In this document: positions 970-56,063 of the stretch, in pieces
How positions within the stretch are numbered: the first letter of the stretch is position 1
How the letters are laid out: each line of letters opens with the position of its first letter
Source: Novibacillus thermophilus
GTDB taxonomy: Bacteria > Bacillota > Bacilli > Thermoactinomycetales > Novibacillaceae
NCBI RefSeq assembly: GCF_002005165.1
Contig: NZ_CP019699.1
Location: 2,108,001-2,172,000 of the forward strand
Direction of reading: 5' to 3'
DNA: 64,000 bases
Notes under the pieces: model-generated
The model's input: only the letters and a program-made list of their open reading frames with translations
Database searches by the model: none
What the model was told of the DNA's origin: nothing
Position numbers and translations under genes: made by a program

Positions 970-1067
970 ACGACAGAAGGTCGAGTACGAAAAAGCTGAC
1001 AATAGTAAAGTCAACGTCGTGTTAGATACCGCTATATAACACCGTGGAAAAAAGAGGTGAATTCTCA

Positions 1068-2009: not shown

Positions 2010-2023
2010 GGAGGAGAGGCTGT

Positions 2024-2857: not shown

Positions 2858-2893
2858 TGTCAATATATTGGTAATCTAGGTAAAATTACTTTC

Positions 2894-2908
2894 GTGATGT
2901 AGCATCAC
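2894..2908. repeat. Small perfect hairpin between permease and binding-protein genes
   Basis: GTGATG-TAG-CATCAC is a perfect 6-bp stem with a three-base loop in the 119-base gap between permease and solute-binding lipoprotein. It has no following T-run, so it is not a classical terminator. Such stems inside ABC operons can stabilise the separate binding-protein mRNA; that role is inference. Confidence 0.35.
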
Positions 2909-2976
2909 ATATTTGTTAAATTGGCAATGAAAGGGCTTTCTATCAAATGAAAAATGGAAAGGCGGGGGGAGTTGAG

Positions 2977-4353
2977 ATGAAGGCGAAGGCCAAGATTTTC
3001 GTGATTTGTATGTTGTTGACCGGTGTTTTAGCGGCATGTGGAGGCGGAGGAGAAGAGACGGCCGCAACCGAGGAAGGGGGAGCGAATGCTGAAGGATCAC
3101 GTGACAACGTAACAATTAAACTTCATACTCACGGTAACGAAGCGAACTATAACTGGAAGGAGACGCTGGCCGCTTTTGAAGAAGAATATCCTAACATTGA
3201 CGTTGACTTAATCATCCTGAGTGAAAAAGGGGATACGCAAGAGGCGATGAAGAAGTTGGATTTGGCAGCGGCATCCGGAGAAGCGATGGATGTCCTGATG
3301 TTCAGCGATCCGGCGTCTTATGCCCAACGAGTAGGCGCTGGGATGGTGGCGCCCATTGACGAGTTCATTGTGGAGGAAGGGTACGACGTTCATGAGGAGT
3401 ATAAGGTCGATACGAGCTTAGGCGGCAAATATTACGCTCTTCCGGGTAAATTCAACCCGTGGTATGTACTCTTGAACAAAGATCATTTAGAGGAAGCTGG
3501 GTTGGAAGTTCCTGAAGACTGGACTTGGGATGAATTTATGGAATACGCCAAAAAACTGACAGTGGGCGAGGGAAGTGAGAAGCGTTACGGGACGTTCTTC
3601 TTTGGTCCGCAAGACGGTTCGTGGATGGAGTACTTGAAACTCGCAATGGCGAGTGAGCCGGAAAACACTGAATTTCTTAAAGACGACGGCACGTCGAATC
3701 TCGACAGTCCATTTTTTCGCAAGACGTTGGAAATACGCCTAAAAATGGAGCAGGAAGACCAGTCCGTCACGCCTTATACAGATTTGATTTCCCAGAAGCT
3801 GCACTACCGGAATCAGTTTTTTAATCAAGATGCGAGCATGATTTTAATCGGGAGTTGGATGAATACAGAGTTAGGGGGCACAGATCAGTTCCCGTTGGAC
3901 TTTAATGTCGCGGTCGCACCGTACCCGAAAAATGACCCGAATGATGAGGGAGGATTTACTCCGGTCACGACAGACTTTATGTCCGTCGCTTCAAATTCGG
4001 AGCACACGCAAGAGGCCTATACGTTTATTCGTTGGTACACGACTGAAGGCCAATTAATACAAGGGAAGAACATTCCGTCGTGGAATAAAGTGAGTGAAGA
4101 CGATTTGGACCGCATTGTCGATACAATACTGTCGGGAACGAATAACCCAGAGAAAGTGGATAAAGCGTCGCTCCTCAAGGTGTTGTCGGAAGCGAAATCT
4201 TCTAAAATGACTTCGCCGGCTTCCTATCAGGCCGAAGTTTACAAAGTCATCAGTGAAGAATATGAGAAATTGATCTTTGGTGAGCAAGACATTGATACGA
4301 TGATCAAAGTCTCACAAGAGAGGGTGCAGGACGTTATCGAAAACAACGGGTAA
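2977..4353 (+). CDS. Carbohydrate ABC transporter substrate-binding lipoprotein
   Basis: 458-residue extracellular solute-binding protein of cluster family 1. The signal peptide (MKAKAKIFVICMLLTG) ends in the lipobox VLAAC, so the mature protein is lipid-anchored at the Cys. A Gly/Glu/Ala-rich linker precedes the sugar-binding domain, which begins TIKLHTHGNEANYNW. An alternative ATG at 2947 would add ten residues before the charged N-region; GGCGGGGGGAG upstream of 2977 supports the shorter form. Partner of the permeases at 1068 and 2024. The substrate is probably an oligosaccharide released by enzymes such as the heparinase-like protein downstream; this is inferred from context. Confidence 0.88.
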   Translation: MKAKAKIFVICMLLTGVLAACGGGGEETAATEEGGANAEGSRDNVTIKLHTHGNEANYNWKETLAAFEEEYPNIDVDLIILSEKGDTQEAMKKLDLAAASGEAMDVLMFSDPASYAQRVGAGMVAPIDEFIVEEGYDVHEEYKVDTSLGGKYYALPGKFNPWYVLLNKDHLEEAGLEVPEDWTWDEFMEYAKKLTVGEGSEKRYGTFFFGPQDGSWMEYLKLAMASEPENTEFLKDDGTSNLDSPFFRKTLEIRLKMEQEDQSVTPYTDLISQKLHYRNQFFNQDASMILIGSWMNTELGGTDQFPLDFNVAVAPYPKNDPNDEGGFTPVTTDFMSVASNSEHTQEAYTFIRWYTTEGQLIQGKNIPSWNKVSEDDLDRIVDTILSGTNNPEKVDKASLLKVLSEAKSSKMTSPASYQAEVYKVISEEYEKLIFGEQDIDTMIKVSQERVQDVIENNG

Positions 4354-4416
4354 CGGTTTGATAAGATAAATGATACAGGGGGTGGTCCCCATCTTTTCTC
4401 TAAGAAGGGGTTCGCT

Positions 4417-6222
4417 ATGTGGAGTTGGATCCATCAACTGGTGGCGGATCAATCACTGCGTTCAAAAATGATGCTAGCGACTGTGGTATGTATTGTTGTG
4501 CCAGTATGTACGACCCTGATCATTTATACTTTTCAAACGAGAGAAGCCGTAAAAGAGCAAGCGGTTGCAAATGCAGAGCGGGAGCTTCAGCTGACGGAAG
4601 CCTACGTATCGAAGTTGTTGGAAGACATGCTCTACATCGCGAATTTCGTGCAGATGGACTCTGAGATCAATACGATATTAAAGGGAAAAGAAAACACCAG
4701 GAACAGCCCACAACAAACTGAAGACACATATGAGGCGTTTATCGATGACAGCAAGGTTAGGAAAACGATGGATAACATCACGTTAGTTGGCGAGAAATCT
4801 TACGTAACCATCCTGCTAACAAGTGGTCAAGCATATGCCAATTATTCGACGAGTGAGTACGATCCAGTCACGATGTTTCAAGAGCGATGGTTTCATCAGC
4901 TGAGAGACGTATACGGGTTTGAGTCATACTGGATTGGCAGTCACCCGACAGTTTTTAAATCGGAAAAGAAGGGCAACCCTTATCAAATTTCAGTTGCAAG
5001 AACACTTCGTGACGGAAGTTCCAACATATACGGGTATGTTGTCGTTTCATTGGATGAGAATCAGTTCAGCAAAATATTCGAGAATGTGGCGGCCAATGAG
5101 GAGATGATGTTGGTCGATGCGTCACACCAAATTATATCGCATAAAGATGACGACAGAATTGGTGAGACACTTTCATATTTGAAGGGAAGGCCTAGAAACG
5201 AAGCTTCAACGATTGTCCGAATATCCGACGAAGATTATCTCGTTTCTAGGCGTTCCATTCCGTTCGTCGATTGGCAGCTCGTTTCGCTGACCCCGTATAA
5301 ACAAGCCGTATCCGACATTCATTCAATCTTCCATAAGGTGTTTATGGCGGAACTCGTATTGTTTGTCGCCTTCCTGTTTATTTTGGCTTATTTTTTACGG
5401 GTGATTGTACAGCCGATCGTTCATTTAGGAAGCGTGGCGGACGCTGTACAGCAAGGGGATTTAACGGTACGTTCACGGATTAAGGGCAAGGACGAAATTG
5501 GGCGTCTGGCCGAATCGTTTGACCTCATGCTTGATCGTATAAATGCGATGATCCGAGACATTACCGAAACACAGGAGAGAAAGAGAAAAGCTGAACTGGC
5601 GATGTTACAGGCTCAAATTAACCCACACTTTCTGTTTAATGCACTCAATTCCATTCGGATGAAAGTAATGCGAAAAGGGGACATAGAGAGCTCAGAGATG
5701 ATCAGCTCTTTATCTAAATTGTTGAGAATGACGATCGACCAAGGCAGAGAAACAATTCCCTTCCGGAAAGAAATCGATATTGCCAAAGACTACATTCACC
5801 TGATGAACATGAGGCGATCGACAGAGGTCCAATTGGATATTCATGTGTCCACAGATGCGTATTTAGAAGAAATACCGCGCTTCATCTTACAACCGATTAT
5901 TGAGAATTCAATTATTCACGGCTTTAGCCAAGACGGCGGCACGATTTCATTAGACGCATATGTCGAGGAAGATGTTTTTGTCATCCAAATTGAAGATAAC
6001 GGGCGAGGGATGTCCAGAAAAAAGCTGGAGCACGTACAGGAGTCACTGATAGCGGACACCGCCACAGCTGAGGGTGACGGAGAGAGAAAAGGCTTCTCCA
6101 ATATAGGGTTATCCAATGTTTTTGAACGCATGCGGATGACGTTTGGGACAGCATTCCGCATGCGTTTGGAAAGTAAAGAGGGTCAAGGTACCAAAGTAAT
6201 CATGTTTATACCGAGGAGGTAA
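4417..6222 (+). CDS. YesM-like membrane sensor histidine kinase
   Basis: 601-residue LytS/YesM-family sensor. A membrane helix lies near residues 18-40, followed by an extracellular sensor domain, a second helix around 308-328 and a HAMP domain at about 328-382 (VIVQPIVHLG to MLDRINAM). The phosphoacceptor His is about residue 404 in QINPHFLFNALNS, the signature of this subfamily. N and G boxes follow (IIENSIIHGF, DNGRGMS). It should sense a carbohydrate outside the cell and phosphorylate the AraC-type regulator encoded 9 bases downstream. The pair probably controls the flanking ABC and polysaccharide genes, as YesMN-type pairs do in Bacillus and Paenibacillus. Confidence 0.9.
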   Translation: MWSWIHQLVADQSLRSKMMLATVVCIVVPVCTTLIIYTFQTREAVKEQAVANAERELQLTEAYVSKLLEDMLYIANFVQMDSEINTILKGKENTRNSPQQTEDTYEAFIDDSKVRKTMDNITLVGEKSYVTILLTSGQAYANYSTSEYDPVTMFQERWFHQLRDVYGFESYWIGSHPTVFKSEKKGNPYQISVARTLRDGSSNIYGYVVVSLDENQFSKIFENVAANEEMMLVDASHQIISHKDDDRIGETLSYLKGRPRNEASTIVRISDEDYLVSRRSIPFVDWQLVSLTPYKQAVSDIHSIFHKVFMAELVLFVAFLFILAYFLRVIVQPIVHLGSVADAVQQGDLTVRSRIKGKDEIGRLAESFDLMLDRINAMIRDITETQERKRKAELAMLQAQINPHFLFNALNSIRMKVMRKGDIESSEMISSLSKLLRMTIDQGRETIPFRKEIDIAKDYIHLMNMRRSTEVQLDIHVSTDAYLEEIPRFILQPIIENSIIHGFSQDGGTISLDAYVEEDVFVIQIEDNGRGMSRKKLEHVQESLIADTATAEGDGERKGFSNIGLSNVFERMRMTFGTAFRMRLESKEGQGTKVIMFIPRR

Positions 6223-6231
6223 GAGGATTCC

Positions 6232-7848
6232 ATGTATAACGTGATGCTGGTAGACGACGATTACCCGGTATTAGAACTGTTGTCGGAAACGGTAGAGTGG
6301 GAGAAGTTAGGCCTTCGGCTTCAAAGTGTTCACGAAAATGGCGCCAGTGCACTCAGTCATGCGTTAAAGGAAATGCCTGACATTTTGATTACAGATATCG
6401 GAATGCCGGAGATGAACGGCATTGAGTTAACGAAAAAGCTTAAACAGAGAAAACCTAATTTACAGGTGGCGATCCTTTCCTGCCACAGTGAATTTACATT
6501 TGCACAACAAGCATTGCGGTTAAACGTTCAAGAGTATATTTTGAAGGACACACTCGATCTGGATGACTTGAGGGACGTTTTACTGAGCATCAGAGAAAGT
6601 CTGGAAAAAGAAAGAGAGGCCGATGCCGTTAAGTTGAATTTACAGCGCATAGTCGAACGGAACAAGGAGTTAAGCAGAGAAGAATTTGTGCGCAAAACCG
6701 TTCATCAGCCGATTTACGACGAAACAAAGTGGTATGCGGAAGCGAGAACGTTTGGGCTGCAACTGGAAAGCACGGCTTACTTTCCAGTACTGTGCTTCAT
6801 CCATCATTACCGGTCCGAAAAACAGCGCTTCTCCTCGGAGGATACACTTCAATTTGCAGTCGCTAACGTCATTCGGGAAATGCTCCACAAACACTTTCCC
6901 CAGGCTGTCTACTTTTATTACGGCATCAACGAATCATTTATTCTTTTCCCCTATCACTTTGACTTAAAGACGAGCGACTACGATAAAGCCGCCGACAGTA
7001 TGAAACACATTCAAAGCGCGCTGCGACGGTCATTGGGTGTGTCGATGTCATTTATAGTGGGAGAGGTTTGTTGCGATCCAAACAGTTTCAAGCAAGAACT
7101 GGCTGATTTACTGTTCAACACTCAGCAGCGATTTTACGTGCAACCTGACGCGATTGAACAGAAGAGAAACCGGGAACAAGGAAAAGACGGGTTGTTTTAT
7201 TGGTACGATCAGGCGGTCATGGAACTGAGGGAATTGTTTGTGAAAAAGGATAAGCGTCAAGTGGCTAAAACCGTGACAGGGTGGATCAAGTTTATGGGCG
7301 AGGAATGTTTTCCTCCCGAAGCAGTGAAAGGATGGGTGTTAAAACTGTTGTTGGACATTAAGGTGGAATTGAAGGACTTACACCTGTTTCATTCGTCCTA
7401 CACGACAGATACCTTGCACAGAGAAATTTTTGAAATCGGTTCCTTAAGTGAATTGAAAGATTGGTTAATCAGTTATCTCGAATCGTCACTAACCCATACA
7501 GGAGAGCATTTCGGGAAGATCCGGAGACGTGAAATTTTAGATGCGTGCCATTATGTCGTGATGAATTTAGATAAGAAAATCAGCCTGGAAGAAATCGCCG
7601 GTCATCTTTACTTAAACCCGAGTTACTTTAGCCGGTTATTCAAAAAAGAAGTCGGCGAAACATTTGTCGAATACGTGACAAAGACCAAAATGAAGCGGGC
7701 AAAGGAGCTTCTCGACGTGACAAGCGACTCAGTGGGAGAAGTTGCACAAAGACTCGGCTACGATAATCAAAGTTACTTTATTAAATTGTTTAAGGATCAT
7801 GTTGGAGTGACACCGATGGAGTACAGAATCCGCCATAAAAACGTTTAG
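6232..7848 (+). CDS. YesN-like response regulator with AraC DNA-binding domain
   Basis: 538-residue response regulator. The receiver domain has the acidic pair VDDD near the N-terminus and phospho-acceptor Asp at about residue 55 (LITDIGMPEMNG). A long middle region follows, then a C-terminal AraC/XylS double helix-turn-helix (EEIAGHLYLNPSYFSRLFKK and GEVAQRLGYDNQSYFIKLFK). A strong GAGGAGGTAAG precedes the ATG. It is the cognate partner of the kinase immediately upstream and is expected to activate this operon. No operator could be assigned. Confidence 0.92.
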   Translation: MYNVMLVDDDYPVLELLSETVEWEKLGLRLQSVHENGASALSHALKEMPDILITDIGMPEMNGIELTKKLKQRKPNLQVAILSCHSEFTFAQQALRLNVQEYILKDTLDLDDLRDVLLSIRESLEKEREADAVKLNLQRIVERNKELSREEFVRKTVHQPIYDETKWYAEARTFGLQLESTAYFPVLCFIHHYRSEKQRFSSEDTLQFAVANVIREMLHKHFPQAVYFYYGINESFILFPYHFDLKTSDYDKAADSMKHIQSALRRSLGVSMSFIVGEVCCDPNSFKQELADLLFNTQQRFYVQPDAIEQKRNREQGKDGLFYWYDQAVMELRELFVKKDKRQVAKTVTGWIKFMGEECFPPEAVKGWVLKLLLDIKVELKDLHLFHSSYTTDTLHREIFEIGSLSELKDWLISYLESSLTHTGEHFGKIRRREILDACHYVVMNLDKKISLEEIAGHLYLNPSYFSRLFKKEVGETFVEYVTKTKMKRAKELLDVTSDSVGEVAQRLGYDNQSYFIKLFKDHVGVTPMEYRIRHKNV

Positions 7849-7859
7849 AGGGTTGTGTT

Positions 7860-9701
7860 ATGAAGCGAGATCAAATTCAAAAGTGTTTGCACGACTATAG
7901 AGTTAAAGGGCCTTCCCTCCTGCTTCCCGAAGTGGAAGACCTTGACAATTGGTGGAGCACTTTTCATCAGGATAAGGCCTATAAATTTCTTTTGGACGAA
8001 ATACGAGAGGAGGCCGGAAAACTCATTCACGGCCAAGACCCGGAGCTGACATATTCCTTATTTCAGGCCTTCTGGGACAACGGGTCGAGGGTCGAATACG
8101 AAGAAGTTTATTTTCGGAAAAGAAGGCGACTGAATACGTTTGCCATGATGTCGTTACTTGATCCTGATCAACAAGTGTTTCGTGAAGCCCTGCAGAATAC
8201 CTTGTGGTCCATTTGCAATGAGTATACGTGGTGTCTGCCCGCCCATTTAAGTCACGGCCGAACGAACATCCACTTTTCTCTTGAGGGCCACGCTGACGAT
8301 CCGCACAGTGACGCTCTAGAGATCGATTTGTTTGCTGCGGAGACCGCCTTTTCCTTAAGTGAAATCTTAAGTTTAACAGACCGGTTCTTACATCCGTTGA
8401 TAAAAGGGAGAATACATGAAGAAGTTTACCGAAGAATTTTTCGACCTTACGTTCAGAATGTTTACCATTGGGAAACGGCAACGCACAATTGGTCGGCAGT
8501 TTGTGCCGGTTCGATTGGCGCGGCTGCGCTGCACTTAATCGATGATGTGGATGACCTATCTCTCATTCTAGAGAAGGTCCTACATTCTTTGGAATTTTAT
8601 TTAGCTGGTTTCAATGAAGACGGCGTTTGTAGAGAGGGTTACATGTATTGGCAATACGGATTTGGGTACTACGTTTACTTCGCTGACTTATTGAAAAAGA
8701 GAACAGGGGGGAAGATTGATTTATTTCAGTCTGAAAAAGTACATCAAATAGCTCGTTTTCAGCAAAAAGTCTTTATGGAAGGAAATGCGGTGATTAATTT
8801 TTCCGACTGTCCTTCCCATGTCCGTGTGTTTCTCGGCATGACTCACTATTTAAAACAGCGCTATCCGGATCTTGACGTCCCCGTCACACGTCTTCGCGCA
8901 AAATACACGGACGATCATTGTAGTCGGTGGGCGCCGGCGATCAGAAATTTAGTGTGGTTTTGTCCCGAAGAGAAAGGCGAACCTTGGCGGGCGGCAACCT
9001 ACTACTTAGATGCTTCCCAATGGTATATGTCAAGGCACGTATCCCGTTCGGGTGTCTACGTATTCGCCGCAAAAGGAGGTCACAATGCAGAGCCCCACAA
9101 TCATAACGACCTCGGGCATTTTATCTTTCACGCGAGGGGAGAAACCTTTTTGAATGACTTGGGGTGTGGCTTGTACAACAAAGCCTACTTCAGCCCGGAA
9201 AGGTATTCGATCAACTGCAATGGATCACAAGGTCATTCCGTACCTGTGATCAATCATCAATTCCAGTGTGAAGGGATTTCACAGCGTGCGTTTGTCGAAG
9301 AAGCCGCGTACGGGAATCAGGTCGACTCGTTTACGTTCAACTTGACGAAGGCTTACCGCATCCCCCATTTACAGCGATTGACCAGGCGGTTCACTTGGCA
9401 CAAAACGCATCGTCCGACGTTGATTCTGGAAGACAGCTATGTTTTCACTGAAGAACCGGAATCGATCGTTGAAAGATTTGTGACACCAATTGCTTCGATC
9501 GATGAGTACGCTGACGAGCTTAAGCTTGTGGGCAAGCACTGTTTGCACATTACATTTGATCGCAAAGTGCTTGAGCCGAAAATTCAAACGTTAGATTTTA
9601 TCGATCACGATCATCGTAAAGTTGAGCAATTTGCGATAGATTTTACTCTTGTAAAACCCCGAAAGGAAAGCAAAGCGCGGTTTGTGTTTCATTTTGAATG
9701 A
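7860..9701 (+). CDS. Heparinase II/III-like protein
   Basis: 613 residues; an all-alpha N-terminal half (about 1-370) followed by the beta-sandwich heparinase II/III domain. The family signature is seen at about residues 407-420 (GHNAEPHNHNDLGHF, His- and Asn-rich), followed by FLNDLGCGLYNKAYF and NGSQGHSVPVING-like spacing. Members are polysaccharide lyases or oligouronide lyases acting on uronic-acid-containing glycans. No signal peptide is visible at the N-terminus (MKRDQIQKCLHDYR), so it probably works in the cytoplasm on imported oligosaccharides. It lies 11 bases after the regulator. The exact substrate is unknown; neighbouring DUF2264 and rhamnose genes suggest a rhamnose/uronate-containing glycan. 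Confidence 0.8.
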   Translation: MKRDQIQKCLHDYRVKGPSLLLPEVEDLDNWWSTFHQDKAYKFLLDEIREEAGKLIHGQDPELTYSLFQAFWDNGSRVEYEEVYFRKRRRLNTFAMMSLLDPDQQVFREALQNTLWSICNEYTWCLPAHLSHGRTNIHFSLEGHADDPHSDALEIDLFAAETAFSLSEILSLTDRFLHPLIKGRIHEEVYRRIFRPYVQNVYHWETATHNWSAVCAGSIGAAALHLIDDVDDLSLILEKVLHSLEFYLAGFNEDGVCREGYMYWQYGFGYYVYFADLLKKRTGGKIDLFQSEKVHQIARFQQKVFMEGNAVINFSDCPSHVRVFLGMTHYLKQRYPDLDVPVTRLRAKYTDDHCSRWAPAIRNLVWFCPEEKGEPWRAATYYLDASQWYMSRHVSRSGVYVFAAKGGHNAEPHNHNDLGHFIFHARGETFLNDLGCGLYNKAYFSPERYSINCNGSQGHSVPVINHQFQCEGISQRAFVEEAAYGNQVDSFTFNLTKAYRIPHLQRLTRRFTWHKTHRPTLILEDSYVFTEEPESIVERFVTPIASIDEYADELKLVGKHCLHITFDRKVLEPKIQTLDFIDHDHRKVEQFAIDFTLVKPRKESKARFVFHFE

Positions 9702-46310: not shown

Positions 46311-47384
46311 TCACGTGTGGGAAGTGGATGCACGCCTTCCTTTCACATGGTCCAGAACTTCTTTCAGCCGGGGGTAACGGTTGAGTTTGCGGTACAGCGT
46401 CGTTCTTCCGATACCGGCGTTTTTCGCCGTTTGGGACAAGTTTCCGCCGGTTTTGACAATTTGCCGTTCGAGAAAGGATTCCTCGTCGTAAGACAGCGTC
46501 GGTTGTTTCGTGTGTTGTGCTGAGAAGCGAAGGTCTTGGGTGCGGATTGTTGTCGATTGGCGCCCGAAGAGGGCCTGGTAAGCCGCTTGACGCAGCGTGT
46601 GACGGAGTTCACGGATGTTGCCCGGCCATTCGTACTCTTTCATGCGGGCTTTCGCTTTTTCTTCCAGTGTCAGCGATTCGACGCCCAGTTCGTGGGCGAT
46701 CGTCTGCAAAAAGTGTGCAGACAGGGGGAACAGGTCTTCCCGTTCCCGGAGGGGCGGGAGGGTTAGTTCGATCTCGCACAGGCGGTAGTACAGGTCCGCA
46801 CGGAAGCGGCGCTCGTTCACGTCGCGGACGAGATTGCGGTTGGTGGCGGCAATGATGCGCACGTCGACGGATGTCGGCCTGTTGGAGCCGACGGGCGTGA
46901 TCCGTTTGTCTTCCAGCGCGCGCAAAAGGGCGACTTGTGAGGCGTAGGGCATTTCGCCGATTTCGTCCAGGAAGAGCGTTCCTCTGTCAGCCACGATGAA
47001 TTTGCCGCGGTGCCCCCTCGGGCTGGCTCCAGTGAACGCGCCTTTTTCGTAACCGAACAGTTCAGCGGCGACCAACGATTCGGGAATCGCCCCGCAGTTG
47101 ACTGGAACGAATGGTCCGTTCCGGCCGCTTGCCCGGTGAATGGCCCGGGCGACAACTTCCTTGCCGGTTCCGGTCTCTCCCTGAATGAGGACGGATGCGT
47201 CCGTCCGGGCGATACGGCGGGAGAGGCGCAAGACGTTTTGCGCTTTCGGGCATTCCCAGACGGTTTGCTCGTGCTGCTCCAAAGAGCGCAGCGTTCTTGT
47301 TGAATTCGTTTTCATAAAGGGTGAAAGCTTGTCTCCTCGACGTGAAAGGGATGTATCGTCGGCGAACTGTTCATTCTTTTCCAT
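46311..47384 (-). CDS. Sigma-54 activator without sensor domain
   Basis: 357 residues. AAA+ domain from about residue 45 with GETGTGKEVVARAIH (Walker A), FGYEKGAFTGASPRG (the sigma-54 contact loop), GTLFLDEIGEMP (Walker B) and the R-finger region (ERRFRADLYYRL); C-terminal Fis-type helix (NLSQTAKNAGIGRTTLYRKLNRY). There is no GAF, PAS, receiver or other N-terminal sensor, as in PspF. It is divergent from the cox-type operon and separated from it by a repeat-rich region and a -24/-12 promoter, so it should activate that operon. Confidence 0.88.
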   Translation of the reverse strand: MEKNEQFADDTSLSRRGDKLSPFMKTNSTRTLRSLEQHEQTVWECPKAQNVLRLSRRIARTDASVLIQGETGTGKEVVARAIHRASGRNGPFVPVNCGAIPESLVAAELFGYEKGAFTGASPRGHRGKFIVADRGTLFLDEIGEMPYASQVALLRALEDKRITPVGSNRPTSVDVRIIAATNRNLVRDVNERRFRADLYYRLCEIELTLPPLREREDLFPLSAHFLQTIAHELGVESLTLEEKAKARMKEYEWPGNIRELRHTLRQAAYQALFGRQSTTIRTQDLRFSAQHTKQPTLSYDEESFLERQIVKTGGNLSQTAKNAGIGRTTLYRKLNRYPRLKEVLDHVKGRRASTSHT

Positions 47385-47428
47385 ACTGTCAATCCCTTCG
47401 CAATCGTGAATCTTATAAATCTATTCTA

Positions 47429-47480
47429 TGTTCCATTCTTGTTCCGGTCAAGTGTTCCAGTGGAACACCAAATTGGAACA
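47429..47480. promoter_or_regulatory. Enhancer (UAS) for the sigma-54 activator
   Basis: TGTTCCA-G-TGGAACA (47453-47467) is a perfect 7+7 palindrome. Further half-sites flank it: TGTTCCA 47429-47435, TGTTCC 47440-47445 and TGGAACA 47474-47480. The central dyad sits about 75-90 bases upstream of the -24 element, typical for an enhancer. Confidence 0.7.
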
Positions 47481-47540
47481 GATAACAGGTTGAGGGAGCG
47501 CCCAATACCGTAAGAGGTGCTATCAGACAAGGGGAAAAAT

Positions 47541-47556
47541 CGGCATAGTTTTTGCA
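47541..47556 (+). promoter_or_regulatory. Sigma-54 (-24/-12) promoter of the molybdenum hydroxylase operon
   Basis: CGGCATAGTTTTTGCA has the invariant GG (47542-47543) and GC (47554-47555) separated by exactly ten bases. Transcription should begin near 47567, ahead of the coxG-like start at 47609. Confidence 0.85.
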
Positions 47557-47608
47557 TAGATATGTTTGGAAGATGGACATTGACATACAGCGGGAGGTGG
47601 TGAAGACA

Positions 47609-48052
47609 TTGCACATTCATTACCAACACGAATTTCCACTGCAGAGAGAACAGGTGTGGGACCATTTGCAGAATGAGGACGTGCTCAGGAAATCGCTGCC
47701 TGGGTGCCGCAAATTTGAACGGGTCAGTGAAGATACGTACGATGCTGAACTCGGGCTCAACATCGGTCCCGTGAAGGGGACGTTTACCGGCCAGGTCCGC
47801 CTGTCCGACCAAACCCGCCCCGAATCTTATCGTCTCGTACTCAAAGGAAAGGGAAAACCGGGGGAATTGAACGCTGACGCTCGCATCACGTTAGAAGAGA
47901 ACAGTGGAGAAACGGTGGTGTCGTGTGCGGCTGACGTCCAAGTGACAGGCGTGTTGGCGTCAGTCGGTCAGCGCGTGATGGGAAGTGTGGCCAAGCTCAT
48001 CTTGGGACAATTTTTCAAGGCAGTGGCGTCTCAAATACGACAGTCTGCTTAA
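47609..48052 (+). CDS. coxG: CoxG-like SRPBCC protein
   Basis: 147-residue START/SRPBCC-fold protein ([50 protein letters not shown]). CoxG relatives are encoded with molybdenum hydroxylases and help membrane association of the CO dehydrogenase in Oligotropha. The open frame reaches back to 47552, but that would start upstream of the predicted transcript. GGGAGGTGGT eight to nine bases before TTG 47609 fixes the start. Confidence 0.85.
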
Positions 48053-48072
48053 ATGATCGGGAGGTGTCGAGA

Positions 48073-48603
48073 TTGGAAAAACCGACGGTTCAGATCAGTG
48101 TGACGGTGAACGGAGTGAGGATGCAAGCACAGGTCGAGCCGCGTACACTGCTCGTACACGCGTTGCGGGATCACTTTGATCTCACGGGCACTCACATCGG
48201 CTGTGACACGAGTCAGTGCGGGGCGTGCACAGTTTTGTTGAACGGAGAGGCCGTCAAGTCGTGTACTGTCCTGGCCGTACAGGCAGACGGCTGTGAGGTG
48301 ACGACCGTTGAAGGGCTCGGAGACGTGGACGACTTGCATCCGGTACAAGAGGGATTTTGGGAAAAACACGGGCTGCAGTGCGGCTTTTGTACACCCGGCG
48401 TCATGATGACCGCCGTCGATTTGCTGAAACACAATCCTCGTCCCAGTGAAGCAGAGATTCGCCAAGGGCTGGAAGGGGTCATTTGCCGCTGCACCGGGTA
48501 CGAAAACATTGTACGGGCGATTCAGTATGCTGCGGACAAGATGGCCGATGGCGAAAGGGAGAAACAACCCGTTACCGCTGGTGATGTAAAGGAGGGAGAC
48601 TGA
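48073..48603 (+). CDS. coxS: Molybdenum hydroxylase small subunit, 2x[2Fe-2S]
   Basis: 176 residues. Plant-type cluster Cys in [22 protein letters not shown], second cluster in [12 protein letters not shown] and CRCTGY, the arrangement of CoxS/xanthine dehydrogenase small subunits. GGGAGG overlaps the GTG at 48064 and is correctly placed for TTG 48073. It passes electrons from the molybdenum centre to the FAD subunit. Confidence 0.9.
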
Positions 48604-48605
48604 AA

Positions 48606-50954
48606 ATGGCGAACATCTTCGGCACTCCGTTGAAACGGAGGGAGGACCCCCGTCTCGTTACAGGAAACGGCAGCTTCACTGACGACATTCGGTTCAGCAA
48701 CGCGTTGTACGCTGTGATGCTTCGCAGTCCCCACGCCCACGCGCACATTAAATCCATTGACGCGTCCAAAGCGAAACAAGCCGACGGCGTTGTCGCCGTC
48801 TACACGGGACGAGATGTGCAAGGGAAAATGGAACCGATCCCGACGGCGTGGCTCCCGCCGGACTCGAACATACAGACACCGGCCCACCCTGCCCTCGCAG
48901 TGGACAAAGTGCGCTATGTCGGGGATGCCGTGGCGATGGTGATCGCGGAAGACCGCTATGCGGCGAGAGACGCACTCGATCTGATCGAAGTGGAGTACGA
49001 ACCGCTGCCGGTCGTCGTCGATCAGGAGAAGGCGATGGCCGACACAGCTCCCCTATTGCACGAGGACGTGCCGAACAACCTGGCGTACCACTGGCGTGCG
49101 GGCGAAGTGGCAGATGACGTGTTCGAGAAGGCGGAAGTCGTCGTGCGACAACGTTTCCGCCAGCAGCGGCTCATTCCGAATCCGATGGAAATGCGTGCCG
49201 CCGCTGCGCGTTACAATCCGGCGAGCGGCGAGATGACGATCTGGTGCACCTCGCAAAACCCGCACATCCACCGCTTTATTTTGTCCGGGGTGCTCGGGAT
49301 ACCGGAATCGAAGCTGCAGATTGTCGCCACGGACGTCGGGGGCGGATTTGGCAGTAAGATCGCCGTCTATCCGGACGAAGCGCTCGTCGGCTTTGCTGCA
49401 CGCGAACTGCGCCGTCCCGTGAAGTGGACGGAAGATCGCAGTGAACACTTCACTGTCACGTCCCACGGCAGAGATGTCATTTTAGACGTGGAACTGGCCG
49501 GGAAGCGCGACGGCACGTTGGAAGCGCTCAAAATAAAGAACATCGCCAACATGGGCGCGTACTTGTCCACGGCGGCACCCGGCGTGGAGACCATTTTGTT
49601 CGGGTTGATCACTCCGGGACCGTACAAAATCCGGCAGGCACAGGTCGACACGTACGGTGTGTTTACGAACACGACGCCGACGGACGCTTACCGCGGGGCG
49701 GGGCGCCCGGAAGCGACGTATCTCATTGAGCGCATGGTGGACCTTTTTGCCGAGGAGATCGGGATGGACCCGGTGGAGATCAGGCGCCGCAATTTAATCG
49801 AAAAAGACGAATTCCCGTATGACAACGCCCTCGGGTTACAGTACGACAGCGGGGATTACAAAGGCGCATTGGACAAAGTGCTCAACATGCTCGATTACGA
49901 CAAGTTCCGGGAAGAACAAGAGCGGGCACGGCAGCAGGGCAAGTACCTCGGCGTCGGCTTTTCCACGTACGTCGAAATTTGCGGCCTTGGACCGTCAAAG
50001 GTGGCAGGGGCCGTCGGGTTCCAGGGGGGACTGTGGGAAAGTGCGACCGTCCGCGTCCACCCGACAGGGAAAGTGTCCGTCTTCACGGGGACTTCTCCCC
50101 ACGGCCAGGGCGAGGAAACGACGTTTGCCCAAATCGTGGCTGACAAGTTCGGCATCCAGGCGGAAGATATCGAGGTGATTCACGGGGACACGAACCGCAT
50201 CTCCATGGGCTGGGGGACGTACGGCTCCAGGACGACGCCCGTCGGGGGGACCGCCATTGCCATCGCCGCAGACCGGGTGCTGGAAAAGGCGAAAAAGATT
50301 GCCGCCCACGCCTTGGAAGTGGCGGAAGAGGATCTCGACTTTCGCGATGGGGCCTTCCAGGTAAAAGGCGTACCGGACAAAGCGATGTCGTTTGCCGATG
50401 TCTCGTTGCAGGCGTCTGTGGCGTGGAACTTGCCGGAGGGCATGGAGCCGTCGCTGGAAGCCCAGGCGTTTTACGACCCTGACAACTTCGTGTACCCTTT
50501 CGGCGCCCACGCGTGCGTCGTGGAGATTGACAGTGAGACGGGCGAAATCGAGATCAAGCGCTATTTGGCTGTGGACGACCCCGGGCCGGTCATCAACCCG
50601 ATGGTCGCCGAAGGGCAAGTGCACGGGGGCATTGTCCAGGGAATCGGACAGGCTCTGTGGGAAGGAGCCGTATACGATGGGCAAGGTCAGCTCTTGTCCG
50701 GGACGTTCATGGACTATGCGATGCCGAAAGCGCGCTTTTTCCCGAAATTTGAAACGGCCTTCACCGAAACGCCTTCTCCCGTCAATCCCCTTGGTGTCAA
50801 AGGAATCGGTGAGACCGGCACGATCGCGGCGACACCGGCGGTCGTCAACGCTGTCATCGACGCGCTGAAGCCGTTCGGCGTCAAAGAGCTGGAGATGCCC
50901 CTCACACCGGAGAAAATATGGAACGTCCTCAAAAGAGGGAGGGTTGCACAGTGA
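48606..50954 (+). CDS. coxL: Molybdopterin-binding large subunit, form II CoxL type
   Basis: 782 residues, normal for the family. The active-site loop reads AYRGAGR at about residues 361-367, the form II signature; form I CO dehydrogenases have AYxCSFR with the catalytic Cys. GGGFGSK, GQGEETTFAQIVA and catalytic Glu near residue 736 (GIGETGT) are conserved. It hydroxylates or oxidises an unidentified substrate (aldehyde, heterocycle, possibly CO). AGGGAG precedes the ATG, two bases after coxS. Confidence 0.9.
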   Translation: MANIFGTPLKRREDPRLVTGNGSFTDDIRFSNALYAVMLRSPHAHAHIKSIDASKAKQADGVVAVYTGRDVQGKMEPIPTAWLPPDSNIQTPAHPALAVDKVRYVGDAVAMVIAEDRYAARDALDLIEVEYEPLPVVVDQEKAMADTAPLLHEDVPNNLAYHWRAGEVADDVFEKAEVVVRQRFRQQRLIPNPMEMRAAAARYNPASGEMTIWCTSQNPHIHRFILSGVLGIPESKLQIVATDVGGGFGSKIAVYPDEALVGFAARELRRPVKWTEDRSEHFTVTSHGRDVILDVELAGKRDGTLEALKIKNIANMGAYLSTAAPGVETILFGLITPGPYKIRQAQVDTYGVFTNTTPTDAYRGAGRPEATYLIERMVDLFAEEIGMDPVEIRRRNLIEKDEFPYDNALGLQYDSGDYKGALDKVLNMLDYDKFREEQERARQQGKYLGVGFSTYVEICGLGPSKVAGAVGFQGGLWESATVRVHPTGKVSVFTGTSPHGQGEETTFAQIVADKFGIQAEDIEVIHGDTNRISMGWGTYGSRTTPVGGTAIAIAADRVLEKAKKIAAHALEVAEEDLDFRDGAFQVKGVPDKAMSFADVSLQASVAWNLPEGMEPSLEAQAFYDPDNFVYPFGAHACVVEIDSETGEIEIKRYLAVDDPGPVINPMVAEGQVHGGIVQGIGQALWEGAVYDGQGQLLSGTFMDYAMPKARFFPKFETAFTETPSPVNPLGVKGIGETGTIAATPAVVNAVIDALKPFGVKELEMPLTPEKIWNVLKRGRVAQ

Positions 50955-51808
50955 TTGCCAGCGCTTTTGAGTACACGCGGGCCCGTTCGGTAGACGAGGC
51001 GATACGACTGCTTGCCGAAAGCGGCGGAGAAGCCAAAGTGCTCGCCGGAGGGCACAGTTTGTTGCCTTTGATGAAAATGCGCCTGACGACAGTCGACAAG
51101 TTGATTGATATCGGCCGTATCCCGGAATTGAAAGGGATGCGGCAGAAGGGAGATCGCCTTGAAATCGGCGCCTTGACGACCCACGCTGAAGTGGCCAAAG
51201 ATCCACTCGTACAGCGGACTTTGCCCGCGCTAGCTGAAGCGGCGGCACAGATCGGCGACATCCAAGTCCGCAACCGCGGCACCGTCGGCGGCAACATTGC
51301 CCACGCCGATCCGGCTTCCGACCTCCCTGCCCTCGCCGTCGCCTTTGACGCAAAGATCAACGCGAGAGGAGAGGACGGAGACGAACGTTTCTCAGCAGAC
51401 GAGTTTTTCATCGGCCCGTTAATAACGGCCATTCCTGAAAACAGCATTTTAACGTCTGTCTCGTTCGCCATCCCTCCGACAGGTGCTAAAAGCACGTACT
51501 TAAAATATCCGCACCCGGCGACGGGATATGCTGTTGTCGGCGTTGCCGCCGCCGTCAGCCAGTCAGACGACGGAACCGTCGACTATGCCAGAATCGGGGT
51601 AGCCGGTGTCGGTGACGTCGCCTTTCGTGCCGAACAGGTGGAGCAGGCACTCATCGGAAACGTGCCGACGGAAGCGCTCATTCAAACGGCCGCCGCAAAA
51701 GCGGCGGAAGGCGTGGAACTGGGCAGTGACTTGTTCGCCTCGGAAGAGTACCGCCGCCACCTGTGTGTTGTCTATACAGAGCGGGCGCTTAAAAAGCTTT
51801 TGTTGTGA
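50951..51808 (+). CDS. coxM: Molybdenum hydroxylase FAD subunit
   Basis: 285 residues. FAD motifs VLAGGHSLLPLMKMRL near residue 32 and TVGGNIAHADPASDLPA near 110 are those of CoxM. GTG start overlaps the coxL stop by four bases (GTGA), with GGGAGGG upstream; the ATG at 50918 lies inside coxL and is rejected. It transfers electrons from the Fe-S subunit to the respiratory chain. Confidence 0.9.
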   Translation: MIASAFEYTRARSVDEAIRLLAESGGEAKVLAGGHSLLPLMKMRLTTVDKLIDIGRIPELKGMRQKGDRLEIGALTTHAEVAKDPLVQRTLPALAEAAAQIGDIQVRNRGTVGGNIAHADPASDLPALAVAFDAKINARGEDGDERFSADEFFIGPLITAIPENSILTSVSFAIPPTGAKSTYLKYPHPATGYAVVGVAAAVSQSDDGTVDYARIGVAGVGDVAFRAEQVEQALIGNVPTEALIQTAAAKAAEGVELGSDLFASEEYRRHLCVVYTERALKKLLL

Positions 51809-51839
51809 GCGTTAGGAAATAGCTGGCCCCGTCTGATTC

Positions 51840-52168
51840 GGGGCACATCTGAGGCAACCTGCATGCAGGACTTTCTTTGTAGAGCGGCTGCCTTGTGAGA
51901 TTTGCCTCGCCCCGTGTCATATCGTGTTCTGGTGCCGGAGCGCTTAGATCCCATGCCGTCAGCGGCACCAGCAACTCTATCAACGAACAGGATAACTGGT
52001 CTTTTGGACAGCTTCTCCGTACCGCTTAGTACCAGCGATGAAACGCTTTTTCCCACTATGAATCACGACATGTGCCGGCGTCAGACGCTTGGCACATGTA
52101 CTTTCAAGACAGGATCTGAACAATGTGACACGGGACGGTCGCGGAAAGAGGTTGTCCAAAAAAATCAC
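51840..52168 (-). mobile_element. Decayed transposase remnant, possibly IS110-like
   Basis: The 428 bases between coxM and coxD carry no intact gene. On the minus strand, pieces in different frames read FPRPSRV then CAKRLTPAHVVIHSGKKRFIA, and further on GEANLTRQPLY with CMQVASDVPRI, resembling the C-terminal half of an IS110-type transposase. No terminal repeats found. A short GCCCCG/CGGGGC stem (51826-51844) follows coxM but lacks a T-run. Low confidence. Confidence 0.35.
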
Positions 52169-52236
52169 AACTGTTGGGATGTGGACATAGCGGTGACTGA
52201 GTGGACATGAGCGTCCATGCCGTAAGGAGCTGAGCG

Positions 52237-53085
52237 ATGCAATCCATACAAGAAGCTTTTCGGAAACAAGGGTATATTGCGGATCGTGCGACAGCCATCA
52301 CCTTGCATCTCGTCATGGAACTGGAAAAGCCGCTCCTCGTCGAAGGACCGGCCGGGGTCGGAAAAACCGAACTGGCGAAAGTGCTCGCAACCGTATTGCG
52401 CACCAAGCTGATTCGCCTGCAGTGTTACGAAGGGTTGGACGCTAACACGGCGCTGTACGAATGGAACTACGCGAAACAAATGCTGCACATACGTTTGAGC
52501 GAACAGTCGGCTATACAGGCGCCAGACATTTTCAGTGAGGCGTTTTTATTGCGGCGTCCCCTCCTCGACGCCCTGCTGGAAGATGAACGGCCGCCCGTCT
52601 TACTCATTGATGAGATCGACCGGGCCGACGAGGCCTTTGAGGCGTTTTTGCTGGAAATACTGGGTGAGTTCCAAGTGACGATTCCTGAATTTGGCACCGT
52701 TCGGGCAAAACATAAACCTTACGTCATCTTGACGTCCAACCGCACCCGTGATTTGAGCGACGCGTTGCGCCGCCGCTGTCTGTATGAGTGGATCGACTAT
52801 CCCGATGTACAAAAAGAGAAAGACATCCTCAGCGCGAAAGTGCCGGGGATCGACGAACGTTTGGCGGAGCGCGTCGTCCGCGCCGTGAACAAGCTGCGCA
52901 AGTTGCCGCTAAACAAACCGCCGGGGGTCGCGGAAAGCCTCGACTGGGCACGGGCGCTCATGGCCCTTGATCCGGGCGAAGAGAGGGAGGACGGCATTGT
53001 AAGGACGCTCGGCTGTGTCGCCAAAGATCGCGACGACTGGAAACTGATCGAAGAAAAACGGGACATTTTGCAGGAGATCACGTGA
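52237..53085 (+). CDS. coxD: CoxD-like MoxR-type AAA+ ATPase
   Basis: 282 residues. Walker A GPAGVGKTE at 37-45, Walker B VLLIDEIDRADEAFE, sensor region LTSNRTRDLSDALRRRC. CoxD acts with the VWA protein CoxE in post-translational maturation of the molybdenum-copper or related active site. Its stop overlaps the start of coxE. Confidence 0.88.
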   Translation: MQSIQEAFRKQGYIADRATAITLHLVMELEKPLLVEGPAGVGKTELAKVLATVLRTKLIRLQCYEGLDANTALYEWNYAKQMLHIRLSEQSAIQAPDIFSEAFLLRRPLLDALLEDERPPVLLIDEIDRADEAFEAFLLEILGEFQVTIPEFGTVRAKHKPYVILTSNRTRDLSDALRRRCLYEWIDYPDVQKEKDILSAKVPGIDERLAERVVRAVNKLRKLPLNKPPGVAESLDWARALMALDPGEEREDGIVRTLGCVAKDRDDWKLIEEKRDILQEIT

Positions 53086-54290
53086 TGCAGAGAGAGGAAA
53101 CCGCCTGCAAGGTGTCAGAATGTCTCATCCGTTTTGTTCACGACTTGCGGCGAAAAGGTTTTTCCGTCACTCCGGCGGAAACTGCGGAAGTCTTCCGCGC
53201 CCTGGATGTCCTCGATTTGTCCGACGAAACGGAAGTGCGTGTCGGTTTGCGGGCGGTGCTCTGTTCGACGCGGGAAGAGTACGATGCCTTCGATGCGCTG
53301 TTTGCCGCGTTCTTCCGGGAAGGGAGAGGGAGGCCGAATGGCGGTCAATCGCGTGCCCGTCGGCAAGGGAAAGACCGGGAAGAGAATCTCCTTGATCGGG
53401 AAGGGGAAAATGGATCAACGAAAGACGGGGCAAAAGTGGAAGGAAGCGAAAGACACGCTGCTGCTTCGATACGTCCGCAAAACTCGACCGGGTCGGAAAA
53501 ACGCTCCTTTTTACAGGCGTTGCGACAGAGTCAAGCCGAGGGAGCCGAAAGGACGACGGTCCGCGTTCCGGATGAACAGTTCACGCATGTGTGGCAAGCC
53601 GCCCGTCACGTCGTCAAACAGATGCGTCTCATGACCGGAAGGCGCCTCACCCCGAGGCCGAAGGGACACCGGATTGACTTGCGCAGAACGATGCGGCGCA
53701 GTCTCAGTACCGGAGGGCTCCCCGTCGATCCTGCCAGGTCCGGTTACAAGAAGCAAACGGTGCGCTTCGTGCTCGTGTGTGACGGCAGCCGATCGATGGC
53801 GCCGTACGCGGGAGTGTTTCTGCAGTTTTCGTTTGCTTTGTCCCGCTTGATCCCGCATACGGAACTGTACGTCTTCTCGACAGAGGTGCGACGGGTCACA
53901 CCGGCACTGAAGGCCGTCCGCCTGCCGCAAATGCCGTCCCTCGCGGAACTCGGCGCAGAATGGGGCGGCGGGACGCGAATCGGCGACGCCCTTGCCCGGG
54001 TGATGCGCGATGTCGGTTTCCGGCTCTCGCCAGTGGACACAGTCGCTGTCGTATTCAGTGACGGTCTGGACAGCGGAGACCCGGACAGGCTCAGGCGGGC
54101 GATGCGTGCCCTTAAACGGCGGGTCCATTGTGTCGTTTGGCTGAATCCGCTGGCGGCTGTCCCCGGATACGAGCCGAAAGCGCGGGGGATGCAAGCGGCG
54201 CTACCTTATATTGATGTCTTTGCTGCGGCAGACGATGCGACGTCTTTCAATCAACTTGCTCAACGTTTGAGGAAGGGGGATTCCGGTTGA
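53085..54290 (+). CDS. coxE: CoxE-like VWA-domain protein
   Basis: About 401 residues. N-terminal helical domain, a charged low-complexity middle (about 90-145) and a C-terminal VWA domain with MIDAS motif DGSRSM near residue 233, and AVVFSDGLDSGD later. GTG 53082 directly before the ATG is an alternative start, overlapping coxD. Partner of CoxD in enzyme maturation. Confidence 0.87.
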   Translation: MQREETACKVSECLIRFVHDLRRKGFSVTPAETAEVFRALDVLDLSDETEVRVGLRAVLCSTREEYDAFDALFAAFFREGRGRPNGGQSRARRQGKDREENLLDREGENGSTKDGAKVEGSERHAAASIRPQNSTGSEKRSFLQALRQSQAEGAERTTVRVPDEQFTHVWQAARHVVKQMRLMTGRRLTPRPKGHRIDLRRTMRRSLSTGGLPVDPARSGYKKQTVRFVLVCDGSRSMAPYAGVFLQFSFALSRLIPHTELYVFSTEVRRVTPALKAVRLPQMPSLAELGAEWGGGTRIGDALARVMRDVGFRLSPVDTVAVVFSDGLDSGDPDRLRRAMRALKRRVHCVVWLNPLAAVPGYEPKARGMQAALPYIDVFAAADDATSFNQLAQRLRKGDSG

Positions 54291-54622
54291 AGGAAAACAG
54301 GGAGATCGTTGAAGCGTTGGAACGAGCGCGACAAAACGGAAAGCGGACAGCCCTTGCCACTGTCGTATCTGTCACGGGGTCAGCGTACCGCAGAGAAGGG
54401 GCCAAAATGCTCATCGACGAGGACGGTCGGACGACGGGAGTCATTTCCGGCGGTTGTCTGGAACCGGATGTGGCGGAAACGGCCGTACAGGTCATAAAGG
54501 AACAAGTGCCACAGTTCAAACAGTACGACATGGACGAAGAAACGGTGTGGGGGTTAGGGTTAGGGTGCCCCGGCACAGTGCACTTGTACATCGAACCTCT
54601 TCCAGAGGGGGATGAAGTGTGA
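54287..54622 (+). CDS. XdhC/CoxF N-terminal domain protein (split)
   Basis: 111 residues, corresponding only to the N-terminal XdhC/CoxI domain (ATVVSVTGSAYRREGAKMLIDEDG, GVISGGCLEPDV, GLGLGCPGTVHLYIEPL). TTG start overlaps the coxE stop; AAGGGGG upstream. XdhC proteins load sulfurated molybdenum cofactor. It ends at a TGA overlapped by the GTG of the next gene, which holds the other domain. Confidence 0.85.
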   Translation: MKENREIVEALERARQNGKRTALATVVSVTGSAYRREGAKMLIDEDGRTTGVISGGCLEPDVAETAVQVIKEQVPQFKQYDMDEETVWGLGLGCPGTVHLYIEPLPEGDEV

Positions 54623-55431
54623 GTCGAGCGGCGCTTAACGCTTGGATCGACTGTGTGAAGCTCGACCGCCCGGGGTTGTTGGCGACAGTGTTGCAAGCAG
54701 AGGACAAGGACGTGGAGGCGGGAAGCCGGCTATTTGTCTCTGAAGGCGGGGACAGGTGCGGGAGCCTCGGGAGCCGGGAGCTAGACGACGCAGTTGTGGA
54801 AAAAGCCAGAGAGAAGTGGTTGCAGATTGACCCGAAATCGGAGGCGCATCCGTTTGCCTTGCACGGGAAAAACGTCACCGTCTTCCTCGATGTGCACGTC
54901 CCCTCTCCGGAAGTGATGATTTTTGGTGCAGGACACGATGCCATTCCAGTGGCGTCGTTTGCCCGGCAAAGCGGCTTTCGCGTGACGGTGGTCGACCAGC
55001 GGGAGGCTTTCGCCACAGCGGAGTGGTTCCCCGGGGCTCACATTGTGTTGACGCGTCCGGAACACTTGGAAGACAGGGTTCGACCGGACCGCCGGACGTT
55101 CGTCGTGATCATGAACCACCACCTGGACAGAGATCGGGCGTGCCTCCGCTTTGCCCTCGAGTCTGATGCCCCTTACGTCGGACTGCTCGGGCCGCGAAAG
55201 CGGTGCAAGCGCCTACTTCAATCGTTGCGGGAGGAAGGGGTGGCGTTCACGGAAAAGGAACTCTCCCGGCTGTACAATCCCGTCGGGCTCGATATCGGCG
55301 CAGAAGGTTCTGACGAAATCGCCGTCAGCATCGTGTCGGAAATGATCGCCGTAAAACACGGGAAGAGCGGACGCCATTTGCGCGCCCAACGCGATTCGGC
55401 TCCACTTTATCAGTCTGCAGAGAAAAGGTGA
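54619..55431 (+). CDS. XdhC C-terminal Rossmann-domain protein (split)
   Basis: 270 residues: a linker (ALNAWIDCVKLDRPGLLATVLQ) continuing XdhC homology, then the Rossmann domain with VMIFGAGHDAIPVASFARQ and VDQREAFATAEWFPGA, and LLGPRKRCKRLLQSL and NPVGLDIGAEGSDEIAVSIVSEM at the end. AGAGGGGG lies seven bases before GTG 54619. The GTGA overlap with the N-terminal part indicates coupled translation. Adding a base to any nearby G/C run does not fuse the two frames, because TGA 54613-54615 blocks it, so the split looks genuine. Confidence 0.86.
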   Translation: MSRAALNAWIDCVKLDRPGLLATVLQAEDKDVEAGSRLFVSEGGDRCGSLGSRELDDAVVEKAREKWLQIDPKSEAHPFALHGKNVTVFLDVHVPSPEVMIFGAGHDAIPVASFARQSGFRVTVVDQREAFATAEWFPGAHIVLTRPEHLEDRVRPDRRTFVVIMNHHLDRDRACLRFALESDAPYVGLLGPRKRCKRLLQSLREEGVAFTEKELSRLYNPVGLDIGAEGSDEIAVSIVSEMIAVKHGKSGRHLRAQRDSAPLYQSAEKR

Positions 55432-55439
55432 AAACTGGT

Positions 55440-56063
55440 GTGAACAGTGTAGCTGCGTTGATTTTGGCGGCGGGGGCGTCTGTTCGGATGGGACGGACAA
55501 AGCCGCTCCTCGACCTCGGCGGACGCCCGCTCCTGGAACGCGTCATGCAGAAGGTAGGGCGGTTTTCTTTCCGTGAAGTCGTGGCCGTGATCGGGTGTGA
55601 TGCAGAGTCGATCCGCCGCCATATTGCCTTTTCAGACAAAAGGTTCCGCTGGGTGGTGAATCAAAGTTACAAACAGGGGCAGAGCCTCTCTTTGCAAAGG
55701 GGAATGGAAGCTGTAAAGAGTCACCACGTGATGGTGTTCTTAGGTGATCAGCCGTTCATTATGGAAGAGACGATTCACACTGTTTACGACGAAGGTGTGA
55801 GGCAGGGAGAGGCGCGACAGCGCCCGTTTGTCGTCCGTCCCCACTTCCGGTCAGTGCCGGGACACCCCGTTTTTTTCGGGCATGTACAGCAGATGGACTT
55901 TACCGGCCTGGGCGGTGACCAGGGTGCCAAACGGCTGATTGACGACATGGACGACGTGTACGCTCTTCCGGTAGACGATTGTATGATTTTATTCGACATC
56001 GACACCCCGCGCGACTACGAAAGGGCGAACCGCATGTGGCGAAGTGAAAACCGTCTACCGTGA
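55440..56063 (+). CDS. mocA: Molybdenum cofactor cytidylyltransferase-like (MocA/PucB)
   Basis: 207 residues. Nucleotidyltransferase motif AALILAAGASVRMGRTKPLLDL and metal-binding VFLGDQPF; C-terminal FDIDTPRDYERA. It makes the dinucleotide form of molybdopterin (MCD) needed by the hydroxylase. AAAGGTGA is eight bases before GTG 55440; GTG 55428, overlapping the previous stop, is also possible. Its end overlaps the convergent ecsB end by nine bases. Confidence 0.87.
   Translation: MNSVAALILAAGASVRMGRTKPLLDLGGRPLLERVMQKVGRFSFREVVAVIGCDAESIRRHIAFSDKRFRWVVNQSYKQGQSLSLQRGMEAVKSHHVMVFLGDQPFIMEETIHTVYDEGVRQGEARQRPFVVRPHFRSVPGHPVFFGHVQQMDFTGLGGDQGAKRLIDDMDDVYALPVDDCMILFDIDTPRDYERANRMWRSENRLP

Follow-up and report, generated by a model that had tools for sequence, protein, structure and literature searches.

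Genes of the locus

Analysis of the window (the whole stretch of DNA analysed, 64 kb in length) showed a molybdenum hydroxylase operon on the + strand and a divergent regulatory gene on the - strand, with a gap of 224 bp between them. The operon started with coxG (47609-48052, 147 aa), which had a TTG start after GGGAGGTG and matched PF06240 (E = 1.9e-27). Profile matches placed the 2Fe-2S subunit gene coxS at 48064-48603, the molybdenum subunit gene coxL at 48606-50954, the FAD subunit gene coxM at 50918-51808 and a CoxD/MoxR-type AAA ATPase gene at 52237-53085, all on the + strand. These were followed on the same strand by genes for a CoxE-type VWA protein (53082-54290; PF05762, E = 5.6e-50), an XdhC/CoxI N-terminal-type protein (54287-54622; PF02625), an XdhC Rossmann-type protein (54619-55431; PF13478) and a MocA-type molybdenum cofactor nucleotidyltransferase (55428-56063; TIGR03310, under the cut-off). 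The CoxG, CoxS, CoxL and CoxM matches, together with the accessory genes, bore out the molybdenum hydroxylase operon named in the first-pass annotation. Between coxM and the ATPase gene lay 428 bp (51809-52236) in which no terminator was found; in several relatives this gap was shorter. XdhC was divided over two overlapping genes in the window (54287-55431), while several relatives had one frame of about 380 codons.

The CoxL protein carried the form II loop AYRGAGR, and the form I motif was absent. It scored under every curated equivalog cut-off: the best NCBIfam model was the archaeal glyceraldehyde dehydrogenase alpha subunit (782 bits, where the cut-off is 790), and the aerobic CO dehydrogenase large subunit model gave 780.6 bits, short of its cut-off of 991. 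The solved structures that matched CoxL best were CO dehydrogenase large subunits.

The divergent gene (46311-47384, - strand) encoded a sigma-54 activator (bEBP) of 357 aa with an AAA+ domain containing GAFTGA and a Fis-type HTH (Sigma54_activat, E = 7e-65, plus HTH_8), as had been proposed for this gene. The frame was intact, with the motifs GETGTGKE (Walker A), GAFTGA, DEIG (Walker B) and the HTH. A Pfam search for an N-terminal sensor domain (GAF or PAS) in the 357-aa protein gave no match, a feature that the earlier reading of enhancer and activator had missed although the elements it named were present. A longer, misannotated activator was ruled out, as the open frame had at most 369 codons and the control region lay upstream; with the control region directly upstream of the frame there was no room to add a sensor.

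Predicted sigma-54 promoter and enhancer array

A candidate sigma-54 promoter, TCGGCATAGTTTTTGCAT, was located before coxG at 47540-47557 on the + strand, with GG at 47542-47543, GC at 47554-47555 and N10 between them, as first annotated; its expected start lies at about 47567. Compared with TGGCAYRNNNNTTGCW, 11 of the 12 informative positions fitted, and the sole mismatch was C for T directly 5' of GG, so that the -24 element read CGGCAT against TGGCAC/T. It was the only site in the 64-kb window with a score of at least 11 against TGGCAYRNNNNTTGCW, and the chance of such a -24/-12 site in the 224-bp gap was about 0.003 under a first-order Markov model. The shorter pattern GGCAYNNNNNTTGCW was not enriched genome-wide (31 copies, against 35 for the reversed control); the hexamers alone are therefore no proof, and the case rests on position and context. 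The gene rpoN, whose absence had been named as grounds for abandoning sigma-54 control, was found in a single copy, and the genome encoded seven clear sigma-54 activators, that is, six besides the 357-aa protein. The + strand from 47200 to 47700 contained no sigma-A-type match.

Upstream of the promoter, a perfect dyad GTGTTCCAGTGGAACAC, composed of GTGTTCCA, a central G and TGGAACAC, occupied 47452-47468; its centre, 47460, was 81 bp upstream of where the -24 element starts. The window had no other perfect palindrome of the 8+1+8 form (P about 0.004 under the model), and the 15-bp core of the dyad, TGTTCCANTGGAACA, had no further perfect copy in the 3,629,225-bp genome. The dyad was part of an array at 47429-47480 with TGTTCC at 47429, 47440 and 47453 and GGAACA at 47462 and 47475, in agreement with the perfect TGTTCCA/TGGAACA dyad and extra half-sites described at first pass. 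Five such half-sites within 52 bp were reached in none of 20,000 model sequences. Relative to the -24 element the half-sites stood at -112, -101, -88, -79 and -66. A one-mismatch dyad at 1,930,496 was considered as a second target of the activator and rejected because it lay inside a pxpC-like coding region. The sequence TGTTCCAAAGGGACA had exact copies at about nine places in the window genome (for example at 110815, 211045, 282824 and 2071189); it is probably part of a repeated element and is not the enhancer.

On the activator strand, the best sigma-A-type match was TTGACC (47451-47446), a 17-bp spacer and TAGAAT (47428-47423), with 10 of 12 positions fitting; it is a weak consensus match (1 found against 0.6 expected in shuffles). 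The dyad abutted the -35 element of this putative promoter, whose spacer contained two of the half-sites (47429 and 47440). Since the half-sites lie in and beside the likely activator promoter, the bound activator should repress its own gene, and the position of the sites suggests autorepression. The array itself had been recognised at first pass, but its overlap with the likely sigma-A promoter of the activator gene had not. Taken together, the observation of a molybdenum hydroxylase operon behind a predicted sigma-54 promoter, an enhancer and a divergent activator gene was confirmed as real at the level of sequence.

Relatives of the activator

The full-length relatives closest to the window activator shared 50-61% identity with it, all came from the same order and were 620-710 aa in length. 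A search of genome contigs for close orthologs of the 357-aa protein gave none above about 52% identity, and the matched loci did not contain cox genes. Both of the relatives scanned for domains had PAS, and one also had GAF. Most relatives were encoded divergently to alcohol dehydrogenase or aldehyde dehydrogenase genes with sigma-54 promoters, gene names that come from a reading of the translations. In the phylogenetic tree, the window activator fell inside an 18-row clade with 99% support, two rows of which were the window's own and the remaining rows all 620-710 aa; it sat on a long branch with no resolved place inside the clade. The branch is called AcoR-like here from its domain make-up and predicted targets, the characterised B. 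subtilis AcoR being outside the tree sample.

The enhancers facing the full-length relatives shared half-sites at about -78, -67, -59 and -48 from the -24 element. The predicted half-sites of the window are of the same kind, and their spacing is different: the TGTTCC and GGAACA cores of the window dyad were 3 bp apart against 5 bp in the related promoters. The enhancer geometry therefore differs, and the perfect dyad may not be the sole functional unit of the enhancer.

Orthologous operons in the class

Among 400 sampled genomes of the class, 38 orthologous CoxL proteins (64-79% identity) were found outside the window genome, and 37 loci with enough upstream sequence formed the promoter test set. 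The sample covered one other genus of the window's family, in which the operon was absent at the threshold applied. Gene order in the orthologous operons was largely as in the window. A good -24/-12 site (score 10-12) was present 65-101 bp before coxG in 14 of the 37 operons, and a convincing site was missing in the other 23. The background rate was 0.0115 sites per 130 bp, giving a binomial P of about 6e-20, a value computed with 15 loci, one of them probably spurious, and on related genomes that are not independent. The locus dropped from the count (L218, 15 to 14) had a site that overlapped the ribosome-binding region and is probably spurious. The predicted sigma-54 promoter before orthologous Cox operons is conserved in several Bacilli families.

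Twelve of the 14 operons with a site came from three families other than that of the window and had dyads like TTTCAAAAATGAAA as twins with a spacing of 20-22 bp, placed at -80/-59 or -69/-48 relative to the -24 element. Between L212, L213, L215 and L216 and the set L204-L208, the dyads were at -69/-48 in one set and at -80/-59 in the other, the pair being displaced by one helical turn and its spacing unchanged. In all 12, a gene for a sigma-54 activator lay downstream in the same orientation; a search of about 9 kb upstream of the orthologous operons gave none. Scanning of three downstream activators showed sub-threshold CBS hits in all three and PAS domains in two, and these proteins were on a different tree branch from the window protein.

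The remaining two operons, L185 and L186, belonged to the order of the window and were the closest orthologs with a sigma-54 site. Their half-sites, TGTWYC/GRAACA, were at -92, -81, -73, -61 and -49 and resembled the array at promoters facing the full-length relatives of the window activator. The sequence TGTTTCAAAATGAAACA of L186 was the sole match in its genome (G006) with one mismatch allowed. The closest full-length relatives of the window activator were encoded elsewhere in these two genomes. In the fourth genome of the order (G016), the operon was present with neither a sigma-54 site nor a member of the window activator branch.

In the Cox operons L258-L269 from other Bacilli families, the operon continued through mocA, pxpB, pxpC, biotin carboxylase and pxpA to the activator gene, about 6-14 kb after the start of coxL, and a second pxpB-pxpC pair often followed; the pxp and biotin carboxylase names are a reading of the translations.

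Elsewhere in the window genome, at about 1.926-1.933 Mb (G000:C1:1925001-1945000, 775-9568 of locus L153), there was a block of gabT, gabD, pxpB, pxpC, a biotin carrier gene, biotin carboxylase and pxpA. The block had a -24/-12 site of its own, some 60 bp upstream of gabT, and PAS-type activators. The pxpC, biotin carboxylase and pxpA genes of this block were in shorter broken frames, which are frameshifts or assembly errors.

Proposed control of the operon

The region at 47385-47608 is best read as a two-way control region. To the right, sigma-54 RNA polymerase would bind the -24/-12 site and wait for the activator. Sitting on the TGTTCC/GGAACA array some 65-115 bp upstream of this site, the divergent activator would loop over and, at the cost of ATP, open the promoter that serves coxG-S-L-M-D-E-xdhC-mocA. 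To the left, sigma-A polymerase would make the activator, which when bound would shut off its own gene. With the GAF-PAS sensor lost, the signal probably comes from the dose of the activator, through autorepression, or from a partner protein, as PspA is for PspF, and not from direct ligand sensing. We regard this explanation as a whole, with its AcoR-branch activator and autorepression, as probable.

A coincidental -24/-12 match and dyad, with the operon on an ordinary sigma-A promoter and the dyad serving a repressor, would account for the fact that single-site matches are common genome-wide and that some orthologous operons have no sigma-54 site. Against this stand the conserved position of the site before coxG in 14 orthologs with helically phased dyads, the lack of a sigma-A-type match on the + strand at 47200-47700 and the divergent sigma-54 activator gene, and we consider such a coincidence highly improbable. 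Somewhat less remote, though still improbable, is a sigma-54-dependent promoter served in trans by a sensor-bearing activator, with the 357-aa gene a decaying or modulating remnant. Candidates include the AcoR-like paralog at 1.194 Mb, whose promoter has TGTTCC-N5-GGAACA, nearly the same half-site, and a PAS activator near 1.93 Mb; the genome has six other clear activators. In two relatives of the same order with the conserved promoter, neither the 9 kb or so upstream of the operon nor the 7-10 kb downstream yielded an activator gene. The intact frame with all its motifs argues against a remnant, as do the divergent position of the gene on the array and a perfect dyad that is unique in the genome.

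The explanation with the most weight among the alternatives, while unlikely, shares the sigma-54 part of the two-way reading and differs only in the control of the activator: the short protein would be a constitutively active truncation, and free sigma-54 would be enough to keep the operon always on, autorepression playing no part. The lack of a Pfam sensor domain agrees with it, and 11 of 490 Clostridiales activators have no regulatory domain, like PspF (PMC6615313). The overlap of the array with the likely activator promoter, which would give feedback for free, speaks instead for the two-way reading.

As for the origin of the circuit in the two-way reading, an AcoR-branch activator may have displaced the activator that is linked to the Cox operon in other Bacilli. 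An activator swap within the order, then loss of the sensor in the window lineage, would fit the distribution over the four genomes of the order. That the conserved Cox promoter changed hands in this way, with the AcoR-branch activator replacing the usual one, losing its sensor and now being controlled by dose through sites in its own promoter, is offered as a tentative account, one we hold to be possible and somewhat short of probable.

Substrate and significance

The pxpB-, pxpC- and pxpA-like genes and the biotin carboxylase gene in the operon of the relatives point away from CO oxidation and towards the breakdown of a lactam or cyclic amide. Taken with the gabT-gabD-pxp block of the window genome, this suggests, as a working hypothesis, that the form II Cox enzyme could oxidise a cyclic imine or amide whose ring is then opened to give a GABA-like product. 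Form II Cox hydroxylases are widespread, and a conserved sigma-54 control region gives a handle on their substrate: in many Bacilli the linked activator bears a sensor, whose ligand should be the substrate or product of the pathway. To this the window would add a conserved promoter whose activator was exchanged and has lost its sensor, a useful case for studying the rewiring of sigma-54 circuits.

Sigma-54 control of catabolic operons in Firmicutes is well documented (PMC6615313, PMC4428206). In Clostridiales, sigL was reported in 57 of 124 genomes with 490 activators (PMC6615313), and many sigma-54 operons are known in B. thuringiensis (PMC4428206). With seven activators in the window genome as well, the statement at first pass that such control is uncommon in Firmicutes was overstated. 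The accompanying remark that it was not known for form II Cox loci held for the literature, since no open-access report linking sigma-54 with form II Cox operons or coxL in Bacilli was found and no cox operon appears in the regulon paper on Clostridiales (PMC6615313), but not for the genomes, in which predicted sigma-54 promoters are conserved before the orthologous operons of Bacilli.

Comparison with known systems

The window shares with form II CoxL and archaeal glyceraldehyde dehydrogenase-type molybdenum hydroxylases the same set of subunits and the AYRGAGR motif. With the PspF and HrpR/HrpS group, which have no regulatory domain and are controlled by protein binding in trans (PMC7175178), the window activator has in common only the AAA+ and HTH domains and the missing regulatory domain. 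It scored 225 bits against the PspF equivalog cut-off of 444, belongs by sequence to the AcoR-like branch instead, and had no PspA-like partner identified. AcoR-type activators (AcoR and AdhR of Bacilli and Clostridia) share the AAA+ domain with GAFTGA and the Fis-type HTH. They have a GAF-PAS sensor, whereas the window protein is only 357 aa, has neither GAF nor PAS, and faces a form II Cox operon. The Cox operons L258-L269 have, as in the window, an orthologous coxG-S-L-M(-D-E)-xdhC-mocA order and a sigma-54 promoter before coxG. Their activator is usually about 690 aa, downstream and co-directional, while that of the window is 357 aa and divergent, and their enhancer is a dyad TTTCA-N4-TGAAA in twin copies in place of the TGTTCC/GGAACA array of the window.
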